This document shows, one piece after another, positions 120 through 4,858 of a stretch of 64,000 nucleotides of DNA. The stretch's first letter is position 1; each line of letters begins with the position of its first letter. Source of the stretch: Kitasatospora sp. NBC_00315 (GTDB taxonomy: Bacteria > Actinomycetota > Actinomycetes > Streptomycetales > Streptomycetaceae); NCBI RefSeq assembly GCF_041435095.1, contig NZ_CP108025.1, positions 3,534,001-3,598,000 of the forward strand. The letters are read 5' to 3'. Position numbers and translations under genes: made by a program. A model generated the notes under the pieces. The model saw nothing but the letters and a program-made list of their open reading frames with translations, was not told the origin of the DNA and did no database searches.

Positions 120-1568
120 GTGACGGCGCGCCGAACGGTCGACCGCACCCCCGCCCACACCCCGGCCCCCGCACCCGCGCGCGTCGGCTACGGAACGCTG
201 CTGCGCACCCCCGGTGCCCGGACGTTCCTCGTTCCCGCCTTCGTCGCCCGCCTGCCGTTCGCCATGCTGAGCCTGGGCATCGTGCTGCTGGTCTTCGACA
301 CCCACGGTTCGTACGGCACCGCGGGCGCCGTCGCGGCCGTCTCCGCCGTCGCGCAGGCCTTCATCGGCCCGCAGACCGGACGACTGGCCGACCGCTACGG
401 CCAGTCCGCGGTCCTGCTGCCGAGCGTCCTCGTGCACGCCGTCTCGGTCGGCGCGCTGATCGCGCTCGCCCTCGGACACGCGCCGGTCTGGTCGCTCTTC
501 CTCGCCGCGGCGCCGGCCGGCGCCAGCGTGCCGCAGATCGGCGCCATGGTGCGGGCCCGCTGGGTCGCCAAGCTCGCCGACTCCTCCCCCGGCACGCTGA
601 ACACCGCGTTCGCCTTCGAGTCCGTGACGGACGAGTTCACCTTCGTGATCGGCCCGGTGCTCGCCACCGCCCTGGCCACCGGGATCTCCCCCGCCGCCGC
701 GCTCGTCGCCGAGGCCGCGCTGACCGTGGTCGGAGGGCTCGCCTTCGCCGCCCGGCGCGGCACCGCGCCCGCCCGCCACCCGCACGTCCCGGGCGTCCGG
801 CGGGCGTCCGCGCTCGCCTCGCCGGGCGTGCGGCTGCTGGCCGGCGCGTTCCTCGGCGTGGGCACCGTCTTCGGCGCCATGCAGGTCTCGGTCACCGCCT
901 TCACCGAAGCGGCCGGACGGCCCGGGGCCAGCGGAACCGTGTACGGCGTCTTCGCGGGCGGCTCGATGCTCGCCGGCGTGCTCTACGGCATGATCGCCTG
1001 GCGCCGCCCGGCCCGGCAGCGGCTGCTCGCCGGCTACACCCTGCTGGTGCTCGGCTGCTCCACCCTGTGGGCGATGCCCGACCTGACCACGCTCTCCCTC
1101 GCCGGGCTGGTCTGCGGACTCGCCATCGCCCCGACCCTGATCACCGGCTACACGCTGGTCGAGACGCTGGTCTCGGACGGCGCGAAGACCGAGGCCTTCA
1201 CCTGGCTGACCGGTGCCATCGGGCTCGGCCTCGCCGCCGGCTCCACGGTGGCCGGGCAGCTGATCGACGGCCACGGCCCGTCGGCCGGGTTCCTGGTACC
1301 GGTGGCGGGCGCCGGGGCGGGGCTGCTCGCCCTGGTGGTCCTTCGACGACTGCTGGTGGCGCCGAGCGCTCCCGGCACGCCCCCGGCCGCCGGTGCGGAG
1401 GTGAGCACGCGGGCCGCTGTTCCGGCAGCGGGCACCCGGGTCACCGTCGCGGCGGCGACCGCACCCGCCGACGGCGGACGGACCGGGCCGGAGGCCGGCG
1501 CCCCGATGTCCCGGGGCGGGGAGAGGGGCGGCACCCCGGGCCGGCTCGTCGGGGCCTCGAAGGGCTGA
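120..1568 (+). CDS. MFS transporter
   Basis: Predicted inner-membrane major facilitator superfamily transporter of 482 residues; the substrate is unknown. After a Pro/Ala-rich start of about 25 residues come many hydrophobic helices. The loop GRLADRYG after the second or third helix matches the MFS motif A pattern. I chose GTG at 120 because AGGAAGGA lies just upstream; the frame is open further up to 12 but that part reads as Arg-rich non-coding sequence. The tail after about residue 420 is Ala/Gly/Pro-rich and probably disordered. No partner regulator is adjacent. The nearest downstream gene, the FmdB-type zinc ribbon, has its own promoter, so this gene probably stands alone. Family assignment is solid; function is not. 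Confidence 0.85.
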   Translation: MTARRTVDRTPAHTPAPAPARVGYGTLLRTPGARTFLVPAFVARLPFAMLSLGIVLLVFDTHGSYGTAGAVAAVSAVAQAFIGPQTGRLADRYGQSAVLLPSVLVHAVSVGALIALALGHAPVWSLFLAAAPAGASVPQIGAMVRARWVAKLADSSPGTLNTAFAFESVTDEFTFVIGPVLATALATGISPAAALVAEAALTVVGGLAFAARRGTAPARHPHVPGVRRASALASPGVRLLAGAFLGVGTVFGAMQVSVTAFTEAAGRPGASGTVYGVFAGGSMLAGVLYGMIAWRRPARQRLLAGYTLLVLGCSTLWAMPDLTTLSLAGLVCGLAIAPTLITGYTLVETLVSDGAKTEAFTWLTGAIGLGLAAGSTVAGQLIDGHGPSAGFLVPVAGAGAGLLALVVLRRLLVAPSAPGTPPAAGAEVSTRAAVPAAGTRVTVAAATAPADGGRTGPEAGAPMSRGGERGGTPGRLVGASKG

Positions 1569-1627
1569 GGCCGGTGGCCCCGCGCCGCCGGTGGTATCTC
1601 ACACCTGCGGCGCTGGACTGATCAGGC

Positions 1628-1653
1628 GGAATGCCGCATCATTGAACATCGTT
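1628..1653 (+). promoter_or_regulatory. SigR-type promoter upstream of the FmdB gene
   Basis: GGAAT at 1628-1632 is followed after exactly 18 bases by GTT at 1651-1653. This is the consensus of promoters read by the thiol-stress sigma factor SigR of Streptomyces. The GTT -10 element is also the first base plus two bases of a CIRCE left arm, so the two signals overlap. Transcription would start near 1660, about 40 bases before the FmdB start. That it is used is inference. Confidence 0.6.
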
Positions 1654-1678
1654 AGCACTCATTAGGCGAGAGTGCCAG
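1652..1678 (+). promoter_or_regulatory. CIRCE element (HrcA operator)
   Basis: TTAGCACTC at 1652-1660, a 9-base spacer, then GAGTGCCAG at 1670-1678. The CIRCE consensus is TTAGCACTC-N9-GAGTGCTAA. The left arm matches 9 of 9, the right arm 7 of 9, and the spacer length is exact. CIRCE is the binding site of the heat-shock repressor HrcA, usually found at groE and dnaK-type genes. Here it overlaps the -10 element and start point of the promoter for the zinc-ribbon gene. Confidence 0.75.
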
Positions 1679-1701
1679 GGGGAAGTGCAGGAGGAAGACA
1701 A

Positions 1702-2055
1702 GTGCCCACGTACCAGTACCAGTGCACCGAGTGCGGGAACGGCCTGGAGGCGGTGCAGAAGTTCACCGACGACGCGCTGACCACGTGCCCCGACTGCGAG
1801 GGACGGCTCCGCAAGGTCTTCTCGGCCGTGGGTGTGGTGTTCAAGGGCTCCGGCTTCTACCGGACGGACAGCCGCTCCTCCTCCAGCAGCTCGGTGGGCT
1901 CGGCCTCCGCGGCCGGTTCGTCCGGTTCGACCGGCAGCGGCTCGGCGGGCACCGGCTCGACCGCCGGCTCGTCCTCCGGCAGCGGCTCGACGACCTCCGC
2001 GAGCCCCGCGCCCGCGGCTGCCAAGTCGTCGACCGGGAGCAGCTCCGCGAGCTGA
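1702..2055 (+). CDS. FmdB-family zinc ribbon protein
   Basis: Small protein of 117 residues beginning MPTYQYQC. Cysteines 8, 11, 29 and 32 form two CxxC knuckles expected to bind one zinc ion, the hallmark of the FmdB regulatory-protein domain (residues 1-42). From about residue 55 the protein is a Ser/Gly/Thr-rich low-complexity tail ending with Ala and Pro residues, longer than in minimal family members. GTG at 1702 is supported by AGGAGGAA seven bases upstream. It is monocistronic, with a 20-bp hairpin directly after it. The SigR-like promoter and CIRCE element upstream suggest induction by thiol oxidation or heat, which suits a cysteine-zinc protein, but its molecular role is unknown. Confidence 0.85.
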   Translation: MPTYQYQCTECGNGLEAVQKFTDDALTTCPDCEGRLRKVFSAVGVVFKGSGFYRTDSRSSSSSSVGSASAAGSSGSTGSGSAGTGSTAGSSSGSGSTTSASPAPAAAKSSTGSSSAS

Positions 2056-2080
2056 GCCCCCGCAGGGACGCCACGGACTT

Positions 2081-2125
2081 CGAAGGGCCCGGTACCACCG
2101 TTCGACGGTGGTACCGGGCCCTTCG
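2081..2125 (+). terminator. terminator hairpin after the FmdB gene
   Basis: A perfect 20-bp inverted repeat (2081-2100 with 2106-2125) around the loop TTCGA. It lies 25 bases after the FmdB stop codon. There is no T-run, as is common in Streptomyces terminators. Confidence 0.8.
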
Positions 2126-2283
2126 CGTGGGCGACCGCGCAGTCGTTCGGGACCGCCCGGGACCGCCCGGGACCGCCCGGTCCGCCGCGCCGAGTACCGG
2201 TGCCCGCGACTGCGTGCCGTCTCCGTCTCCGTCCTCCCCGGCGGCGAGGTCAGGGCCTGCGTCACCCCTGGGGGTGTACGAAG

Positions 2284-2309
2284 TTATCCACAGCCCCTGG
2301 TTTTCCACA
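2284..2309 (+). promoter_or_regulatory. pair of DnaA-box-like sites
   Basis: TTATCCACA at 2284-2292 is a perfect general DnaA box. TTTTCCACA at 2301-2309 is a one-base variant in the same orientation, 17 bases on. No dnaA, dnaN or AT-rich unwinding region is near, so this is not an origin; at most it is a DnaA-titration or regulatory site. Confidence 0.35.
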
Positions 2310-2500
2310 GGCTGACGGAGGGGGATTCCGCCGCTTCGCCGACCGGCCCAAGCTGAGCCCACACCGTCGGCCCGGGGCCTGCGGCGGACGCGCGGCCTCC
2401 CTGCGGGCTGCGGTTCCACGGCCTGCGGCCGTGGGCCACCGCCGTGCACCCCGGGGCCGACGGGGTCGCCCACAGTTCCCGGCCCGAGGCGGTGCCCGAC

Positions 2501-2875
2501 ATGACCGGCTTCACCCCACCCCTGCTCCCATCCGGCCTTCCGTGCCCGCTCCCGGCGGCACTGCCCGCCACGCGGCACCGGGCCGGCGCCCGGCGTAGCG
2601 TCCCCGCCGCCGCACCCGCCGTCCCGCCCGGGCGCACCGTCCCCGCCTTCGCCCCGATCCGGCGCGGCGGCAGCGGGCGGCACCGGCTTCAGCAGGCCGT
2701 GCGGCACCGGCCGGGCGTCCTGGTCACCGGTCTGCTCGCCGTCGCGACCGCACTCACCGCGGGCCCACTGCGCCCGGGCCCGCCGGCTCCCGCCGCCACC
2801 TCGGCCGCCCACGAGCCCGCCGGCGCGCCACGCTGTGCCGCCGGTACCCCCGGCAGTTCGGCGCAGAGCCCGTGA
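2501..2875 (+). CDS. hypothetical protein with one membrane segment (possibly truncated SAF/RcpC-like)
   Basis: Predicted 124-residue protein. Residues 1-60 are Pro/Ala-rich; an Arg/His-rich stretch precedes one hydrophobic segment (VLVTGLLAVATALTAG, about residues 74-89); a Pro/Ala-rich tail follows. Streptomyces SAF-domain (RcpC/CpaB-like) proteins start with this layout, but the SAF domain itself is absent, so the gene may be a remnant. There is no strong ribosome site at ATG 2501, and an upstream GTG at 2444 is possible. Weak call, based on the hydrophobic segment and codon bias. Confidence 0.3.
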   Translation: MTGFTPPLLPSGLPCPLPAALPATRHRAGARRSVPAAAPAVPPGRTVPAFAPIRRGGSGRHRLQQAVRHRPGVLVTGLLAVATALTAGPLRPGPPAPAATSAAHEPAGAPRCAAGTPGSSAQSP

Positions 2876-2958
2876 ACGGGCCCTGGCCCTGGTCTTCGAG
2901 GGCGGTGGCGGTCGCCCCCCAGCCCGATCGCCGTCCGGGCGAGCTGGATGCCTTTCGG

Positions 2959-3183
2959 TCAGCCGCCGTGGTGGGGGGGCCGCTGGCTCAGGTACCAGTC
3001 GAGCCCGCGTCCCCCGCTCTCGCCGGCCGTCGGCCGCTCACCCCAGCCGTTGTCGGTGTCGTCGCCGGACTGCTGGTCGAACGGATCGCCGAACACCAGC
3101 TTCGCCCGGGCCGCCCCGCCGACCGCGTCCGGCGGAGTCTCCCCCGACTTTTCCTGCCCCTGCCCCTGCCCCTGCTCGCCCAT
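2959..3183 (-). CDS. small conserved hypothetical protein
   Basis: Predicted 74-residue hydrophilic protein starting MGEQGQGQGQEKSGE and ending DWYLSQRPPHHGG. The Gln/Gly-rich start, acidic centre (GDPFDQQSGDDTDNGWG) and the terminal RPPHHGG motif look like a small protein that I recall as common in streptomycetes, with no known function. No membrane segment or signal peptide is visible. It lies downstream of the sigma factor gene in the same direction, separated by 183 bases, and may be read through from it. Confidence 0.6.
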   Translation of the reverse strand: MGEQGQGQGQEKSGETPPDAVGGAARAKLVFGDPFDQQSGDDTDNGWGERPTAGESGGRGLDWYLSQRPPHHGG

Positions 3184-3366
3184 CGTCCTGCCTCCAGCCG
3201 CTCCAACCAGTCCCCACCAGCGTACGAGCCGGGGCCCCGGCCCCGGTCATCCGTCCACCCGGGGGCCCTGTCCGCCGCCCGCCCACCGGACGGCCACCGG
3301 CGCCACGCCCACCGCGTCGGGCCCCCGGAGCCGGGCCCCCCGACCGCTCTCGAACCGGCCCAGCGC

Positions 3367-4338
3367 TCAGGCCGCTTCGAAGCCCGCGTGGTCGGCGATC
3401 TTCTTCAGTTCGGCGAGCGCGTGCTTCTCGATCTGGCGGATCCGCTCGCGGGTCAGGCCGTGCTGCTTGCCGACCTCGGTGAGGGTGCGCTCCCGACCGT
3501 CCTCCATGCCGTACCGGGAACGGATGATCGATGCCGTGCGGTCGTCCAGCCGGCCGATCAGCCCGTCCAGCTCCTCCCGGCGGAGCATGACCATCACGGC
3601 GTCCTCGGGGGAGGTCGCGCCGGTGTCCTCGACGAGGTCACCGAACTGGGTCTCGCCCTCGTCGTCGACCGACATGTTGAGGCTGACCGGATCCCTGGCC
3701 CAGTCCAGCACGTCCTTGATCCGGGCCTCGGTGGTGTCGAGCTCCGCGGCGATCTCGGCCGGCTCTGGCTCACGCCCCAGCTCCTTGGCCTTCTCCCGCT
3801 GCACACGTCGGATCCGACCGAGTTCCTCGACCAGGTGGACGGGCAGCCGGATGGTGCGCGACTGGTCGGCGATCGACCGGGTGATCGCCTGACGGATCCA
3901 CCACGTCGCATAGGTGGAGAACTTGAAGCCCTTGGCGTAGTCGAACTTCTCGACCGCCCTGACCAGGCCCGCGTTCCCCTCCTGGATGAGGTCGAGCAAC
4001 GGCAGCCCGCTGCGCGGGTAGCGCCGCGCCACGGCGACGACCAGGCGCAGGTTGGAGCGGATGAAGACGTCCTTGGCGCGCTCGGCGTCCTCGGCTATCG
4101 ACTCCAGCTCCTCGCGCGTGACGCCCTTCGGAAGGGCGCTCTCCTCCAACAGGTGCCGGGCGTACACACCGGCCTCGATACGCAGCGAAAGCTCGACCTC
4201 CTCGGCGGCATCGAGCAGGGGCGTCCTGGCGATCTCGTCGAGGTACATCCCGACCAGGTCGCGGTCGGCTTCGAAGTTGGTCGGGCGGGCCGAGCGAGTC
4301 CGGTCGGCCCTGTCGCGAACGACGGCACGGGTGGCCAT
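3367..4338 (-). CDS. hrdD: HrdD-type group 2 sigma-70 factor
   Basis: RNA polymerase sigma factor of 323 residues, lacking the long N-terminal region 1.1 of the principal factor HrdB. Region 1.2 is at about 26-60 (RDLVGMYLDEIARTPLL), region 2 at 92-160 with FSTYATWWIRQAITRSI for -10 recognition, region 3 at about 170-245, and region 4.2 near 286-310 (TLTEVGKQHGLTRERIRQIE) for -35 recognition. ATG at 4338 follows AGGGAG; the open frame upstream has no such site. Length and the N-terminus MATRAV match HrdD-class factors, which are non-essential relatives of HrdB. A SigR-type promoter lies about 90 bases upstream, and S. coelicolor hrdD is a known SigR target, which supports the name. HrdA or HrdC remain possible. 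Confidence 0.75.
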   Translation of the reverse strand: MATRAVVRDRADRTRSARPTNFEADRDLVGMYLDEIARTPLLDAAEEVELSLRIEAGVYARHLLEESALPKGVTREELESIAEDAERAKDVFIRSNLRLVVAVARRYPRSGLPLLDLIQEGNAGLVRAVEKFDYAKGFKFSTYATWWIRQAITRSIADQSRTIRLPVHLVEELGRIRRVQREKAKELGREPEPAEIAAELDTTEARIKDVLDWARDPVSLNMSVDDEGETQFGDLVEDTGATSPEDAVMVMLRREELDGLIGRLDDRTASIIRSRYGMEDGRERTLTEVGKQHGLTRERIRQIEKHALAELKKIADHAGFEAA

Positions 4339-4858
4339 GCTTGCTCCCTTGCTGGTCTTGCCGAGATCTGCCTCCCTGCCCGCAAGGGCAAGTATGCGGG
4401 CCCCTTCGGGACTCACACGTAACGATCCAACGCACAGAAACCGGACAACATTCCCATGTTGCCCAGATTCACCGGCGGATGCAGTATCCTGCCGGTTTTC
4501 ACCCCGGAATTGGACGGAGGGTGAACGGCAAGGCACGGCTGGTGCCAGATCGGGGCTGGTTCGACGGGTCGGCGCCCGCCGAACGGGACATCCATTCGAT
4601 CCGCCATTCGCCGGCCCCGCAACAGGACCGGCCGCCGCGGGAACACCCCAGCCGTCGGCGGAGCGGCCGCGCCACGGGCCCCGGCCGACCGGCCGCCGCG
4701 GAGCCCCCGACGGGAGGCCCTCGGAGAGTCGAACCCCGGAGCGGCTCCTCGCGTTCCCCTCCGTCCCGACCGACATGCTCAGCTCCTTCGCACAAAAGAT
4801 GCCGAATCGCTATGCGTCCACCGCCGGATCCGCACGCGCCCCTGGGAAGGTCTCAGCC
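4339..4858. other. divergent intergenic region between hrdD and the PAP2 gene
   Basis: 520 bases between two divergent genes. The hrdD side holds the SigR-type promoter. I see no clear promoter or operator on the PAP2 side beyond the ribosome site GGGAAGG near 4843. Open frames here are GC-driven. Confidence 0.5.
4429..4454 (-). promoter_or_regulatory. SigR-type promoter for hrdD
   Basis: On the minus strand GGAAT (4454-4450) is followed after exactly 18 bases by GTT (4431-4429), the SigR consensus. Transcription would start near 4420, giving an 80-base leader before the ATG at 4338. Confidence 0.65.

Follow-up and report, generated by a model that had tools for sequence, protein, structure and literature searches.

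We analysed a stretch of 64,000 nucleotides from Kitasatospora sp. NBC_00315 (the window), and our results indicate that the region upstream of a small zinc-ribbon gene is the promoter-operator of Streptomycetaceae ruc, at which HrcA, through a CIRCE operator, and SigR would control a redox-switched chaperone in an AND-like manner (probability roughly 0.87). The regulation and biochemistry of this circuit come from Mycobacterium tuberculosis; we infer its behaviour in Streptomycetaceae and the AND-like logic. The elements of the region are listed in Table 1.

Table 1. Elements of the ruc promoter-operator region, in window positions.
Feature	Position	Strand	Basis
TGGACT, putative -35 of an older housekeeping-type promoter	1614..1619	+	TGGAC-N17-20-CANNAT in 52 of 124 ruc upstreams sampled across the class
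GGAAT, SigR -35 element	1628..1632	+	conserved in family, exact in 259/298 genomes
CATCAT, putative -10 of the housekeeping-type promoter, spacer 17	1637..1642	+	column conservation
GTT, SigR -10 element	1651..1653	+	18-base spacer; TT common to CIRCE left arm
CIRCE operator for HrcA, TTAGCACTC-N9-GAGTGCCAG	1652..1678	+	sequence; kept across most ruc upstreams of the class
Ribosome binding site AGGAGGAA	1689..1696	+	sequence
ruc orthologue, Cys4 zinc ribbon (C8, C11, C29, C32) and Ser/Gly/Ala-rich tail, 117 aa, GTG start	1702..2055	+	PF09723, TIGR02605, identity

The protein matched PF09723 (Zn_ribbon_8, 2.6e-15) and TIGR02605 ('FmdB family', 1.4e-20). Since the latter is named FmdB family zinc ribbon protein, the gene might be taken to encode a general FmdB-type regulatory zinc ribbon of metal or one-carbon metabolism, with zinc stress as the purpose of its regulation. 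This is extremely improbable, however, because the first 58 aa, which span the entire zinc ribbon, are 78-79% identical to those of mycobacterial orthologues and carry the cysteines of the N-terminal CxxC-N17-CxxC (C8, C11, C29 and C32) at the same positions, because the C-terminal tail (residues 59-117) is of low complexity and mostly S, G, A and T, a composition that predicts disorder, because CIRCE is otherwise common only to chaperonin genes and hrcA, and because M. tuberculosis Ruc proved to be a chaperone by direct assay (PMC7448276). The mutation primers made for M. tuberculosis Ruc, C8S/C11S and C29S/C32S, address the same cysteine positions (PMC7448276). A PDB sequence search with the protein returned low-complexity noise only. 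Judged by these comparisons, the gene is the orthologue of the characterised Rv0991c (Ruc) of M. tuberculosis, not the unstudied FmdB protein that an earlier sequence-only reading had seen in it. Nor does anything point to the zinc-stress signal proposed in that reading; the zinc is a redox switch.

Of the 198 genomes sampled across the class, 187 have a gene for the zinc ribbon. In the window (123-4776), ruc is flanked by an MFS gene on one side and a sigma-70 gene on the other, and the order in Streptomyces parvulus, with genes named by eye, is MFS, ruc, a phosphorylase-like gene and an MscL-like gene, so that the downstream neighbourhood differs between the two. A literature search found no mention of SCO3187, possibly the S. 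coelicolor ruc orthologue, and no publication describing SigR control of an FmdB gene in a streptomycete.

The sequence-only reading had placed an exact SigR consensus, GGAAT-N18-GTT, at 1628-1653 and a CIRCE element overlapping its GTT, and our own reading of the sequence agrees on both the arms and the overlap. The left arm of CIRCE (TTAGCACTC, 1652-1660) is perfect (9/9), the spacer is 9 bases, and the right arm (GAGTGCCAG, 1670-1678) agrees with GAGTGCTAA at 7/9 positions, giving 16/18 arm bases against TTAGCACTC-N9-GAGTGCTAA. The two mismatches do not indicate decay, since the CIRCE of the genome's own hrcA has GAGTGCCAG as its right arm too. The 3' end of CIRCE lies 23 bases upstream of the zinc-ribbon gene. 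The genome encodes a sigR orthologue (TIGR02947, 352 bits against a cut-off of 251.55), which itself has GGAAT-N18-GTT upstream. SigH of M. tuberculosis is the orthologue of SigR. Genome-wide, exact GGAAT-N18-GTT occurs 44 times and the backwards pattern twice; within the 64-kb window alone, GGAAT-N17-19-GTT was seen 2 times against 0.63 expected, which is not significant. The second exact site in the window (4429-4454, minus strand) is followed after about 90 bases by an HrdD-like gene of the sigma-70 family, which starts near 4338 on the minus strand. In S. coelicolor, hrdD was earlier reported as a SigR target, for which ChIP-chip gave no confirmation.

For the composite site, the case is carried by conservation. 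Of 298 Streptomycetaceae genomes, 259 contain GGAAT-N17-19-GTTAGCACTC-N9-GAGTGC; the reversed control gave 0 in every genome listed, and the spacer from GGAAT to GTT was 18 in all family matches listed. A chance match is therefore excluded, being ruled out by this family conservation together with the permuted-motif controls described below. The GGAAT and GTT as well as the CIRCE arms are thus conserved at orthologous loci, which was the check that the sequence-only reading had set for itself. In 66 Streptomycetaceae rows aligned on CIRCE, which are related sequences rather than independent samples, the GGAAT columns were conserved at 0.89-0.98 per base and the preceding six bases at 0.45-0.79; as the rows were picked for GTTAGCACTC and the right arm, the arms are perfectly conserved in this alignment by construction. 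About 13% of the sampled Streptomycetaceae genomes are without the exact composite, among them Actinacidiphila with GGAAA and others without any SigR -35. In addition, at three loci from a few genomes of one genus (L204, L205 and L207, in G255, G144 and G186; genus g10) the ruc upstream has kept CIRCE but no longer contains TGGACT and GGAAT; these are natural losses of the SigR promoter. As both sites are conserved, dual control of Streptomycetaceae ruc by HrcA and SigR is very likely on the sequence comparison.

A third element is interleaved with the SigR elements in the window, namely TGGACT-N17-CATCAT. TGGAC-N17-20-CANNAT was present in 52 of 124 class-wide ruc upstreams, including 27 of 30 from Streptomycetaceae and upstreams from several other families; among the permutation controls for TGGAC in the 124 upstreams, GGACT, which overlaps TGGAC, gave 21 and the others at most 6. 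Columns A(-14), A(-11) and T(-10) were conserved at 0.98-1.0 in the 66 Streptomycetaceae rows, and in most other families with the pair CANNAT overlaps CIRCE by one base, its last T being the first of CIRCE. These patterns suggest that TGGAC-N17/18-CANNAT is an older promoter of housekeeping type, the sigma factor being inferred. No such pair was found in the sampled mycobacterial family. For M. tuberculosis ruc, two starts 19 bases apart have been reported (PMC7448276), which fits two promoters there.

To compare the arrangement across the class, we used the ruc upstreams of 124 sampled genomes, 80 named loci and 83 more from three families, with some genomes in more than one set, and defined the register as the start of GTT relative to the first CIRCE base. 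CIRCE was present in the great majority of upstreams, and the exceptions cluster (families f5, f25 and f36, and parts of f26, f33 and f38). The SigR-type promoter has a patchy distribution and takes about ten registers, from -25 to +32. Register -1 is that of Streptomycetaceae and also of Rhodococcus and Nocardia relatives, -3 that of Mycobacterium, and -7 that of Nonomuraea and, with GGAAC, of Frankia-like genera; registers -18 to -25 occur in many genera of family f17 and in single genomes elsewhere. At two loci of one genus (L193 and L196; family f4, genus g94) the register is +32, with GGAAT inside the 9-base CIRCE spacer. Catenulispora (L063) and the Streptomycetaceae genera g2 and g5 keep CIRCE and have no SigR site. 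No description of this shifting register across clades was found in the literature search.

The same comparison bears on whether the SigR site is real. HrcA control alone might be genuine, the SigR match then being a GTT supplied by CIRCE plus a chance GGAAT, and TGGACT-N17-CATCAT the working promoter. Indeed, the GTT lies inside GTTAGCACTC in Streptomycetaceae, so that at register -1 the TT comes from CIRCE, which leaves just GGAAT and a single G as independent evidence there; moreover, the TGGAC-CANNAT pair occurs in families without GGAAT, and CIRCE without a SigR site is found in basal Streptomycetaceae and many other families. We nevertheless regard this explanation as very unlikely. GGAAT is conserved above its flanks, and among 150 dereplicated CIRCE-bearing upstreams outside Streptomycetaceae there were 35 GGAAT-N18-GTT near CIRCE and one each with spacers of 15, 17 and 19, against a mean of 0.09 for 89 permuted motifs and of 2.1 for a shuffle control, 2 of the latter being fixed because CIRCE and the following bases were left unshuffled. 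With register -1 left out, 24 GGAAT-N18-GTT remained against 0.08 per permuted motif, almost only with spacer 18. For the SigR-type promoter in general, these other registers rule out that the GTT is just a part of CIRCE. Furthermore, Rv0991c is a direct SigH target in M. tuberculosis (40.3-fold; PMC4803200).

Since registers differ outside Streptomycetaceae, the SigR element and CIRCE are under separate selection. CIRCE is near-universal and the SigR-type promoter patchy, which makes HrcA control look like the ancestral state and SigR/SigH control like an input added or re-registered repeatedly. The genera that keep CIRCE without a SigR site (Catenulispora, g2 and g5) suggest, on simple inspection of the distribution, that HrcA control is older than SigR control at ruc. 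It is thus probable that in Actinomycetes an ancestral HrcA operator at ruc acquired or re-registered a SigR/SigH promoter several times, at about ten positions including the CIRCE spacer, which would amount to repeated convergent wiring.

Within the 8.3-Mb genome, CIRCE (TTRGCACTC-N8-10-GAGTGC) was found at four loci only and the reversed pattern at 0, in keeping with the earlier remark that HrcA targets are few. These loci are ruc, groEL2, groES (with two CIRCE copies) and hrcA (PF01628, 2.2e-57), the last preceded by a CIRCE of its own; groEL2 and groES were assigned by eye from translated starts and hrcA by Pfam. None of the genome's 44 exact GGAAT-N18-GTT sites lies at groEL2, groES or hrcA, and no gene of this genome other than ruc therefore combines the two elements. 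The SigR site explains how ruc, unlike the genome's other CIRCE genes, could respond directly to oxidation. In M. tuberculosis, HrcA repression extends to four genes, namely ruc and three members of the Hsp60/Hsp10 family (PMC7448276), and the two lists nearly coincide. As Ruc is itself a chaperone, its gene is not out of place among the HrcA targets.

We propose that CIRCE-bound HrcA would extend over the SigR -10 as well as the predicted transcription start, and would also lie just past the -10 of the probable housekeeping promoter, so that ruc would be off in unstressed cells. Heat or protein-folding stress would inactivate or remove HrcA, thiol oxidation would free SigR from RsrA and let SigR RNA polymerase fire from GGAAT-N18-GTT, and both events would be required for full ruc output. 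The same cues would activate the product, in that oxidation of the four cysteines would release zinc and expose a disordered chaperone that passes clients to DnaK. Both regulatory inputs would then match the conditions under which the ruc product works. The biochemical part follows M. tuberculosis Ruc, an oxidation-activated chaperone that is zinc-bound when reduced, loses zinc when oxidised and, once oxidised, binds unfolded proteins and hands them to DnaK (PMC7448276). The SigR promoter and CIRCE could instead be independent inputs (OR logic), with HrcA unable to stop SigR polymerase, and clades whose SigR -10 lies 18-25 bases upstream of CIRCE would allow roadblock repression only. In the window, however, CIRCE extends over the SigR -10 as well as the predicted transcription start. 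In an M. tuberculosis mpa mutant, in which HrcA degradation is lost, heat induction of ruc is strongly impaired, the Pup-proteasome being needed for robust induction (PMC7448276). Independent inputs are thus unlikely, and the AND-like arrangement is preferred. Pup is also encoded in the present genome.

The link between SigR and HrcA drawn in the sequence-only reading stands in that both sites are conserved and dual control is very likely, but it cannot be called unstudied, as it is known for Rv0991c (PMC7448276, PMC4803200). M. tuberculosis ruc has overlapping SigH and HrcA sites, is derepressed in an hrcA mutant and shows further induction by heat (PMC7448276). The literature search, which did not extend to the main SigR ChIP-chip study, found no expression or binding data on any Streptomycetaceae ruc. 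Our results carry the M. tuberculosis circuit over to most of the class, including the Streptomycetaceae, a family of antibiotic producers in which mutants of sigR and hrcA are easily made. The register changes between clades can serve as a natural experiment in how a repressor site is combined with an alternative sigma promoter.

Compared with known systems, the ruc promoter has the exact -35, spacer and -10 of the Streptomyces SigR regulon (consensus GGAATN18GTT), but unlike that regulon generally it is placed under the operator of a heat-shock repressor. With the HrcA-controlled groES, groEL and hrcA of actinomycetes it shares the operator and, in this genome, the repressor gene, whereas the promoters of those genes here are without an exact SigR site. 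The closest counterpart is M. tuberculosis ruc, an orthologous gene in which a SigR/SigH-type promoter likewise overlaps an HrcA operator and the HrcA regulon likewise comprises chaperonin genes and ruc. The register differs, since in the sampled mycobacteria GTT ends just before a CIRCE-like arm (GTT-CTAGCACTT, -3), whereas here TT is shared (-1) and the left arm is a perfect CIRCE arm. The SigH/HrcA overlap on ruc having been published for M. tuberculosis in 2020, the Streptomycetaceae case is a well-conserved new example of it rather than a new system.
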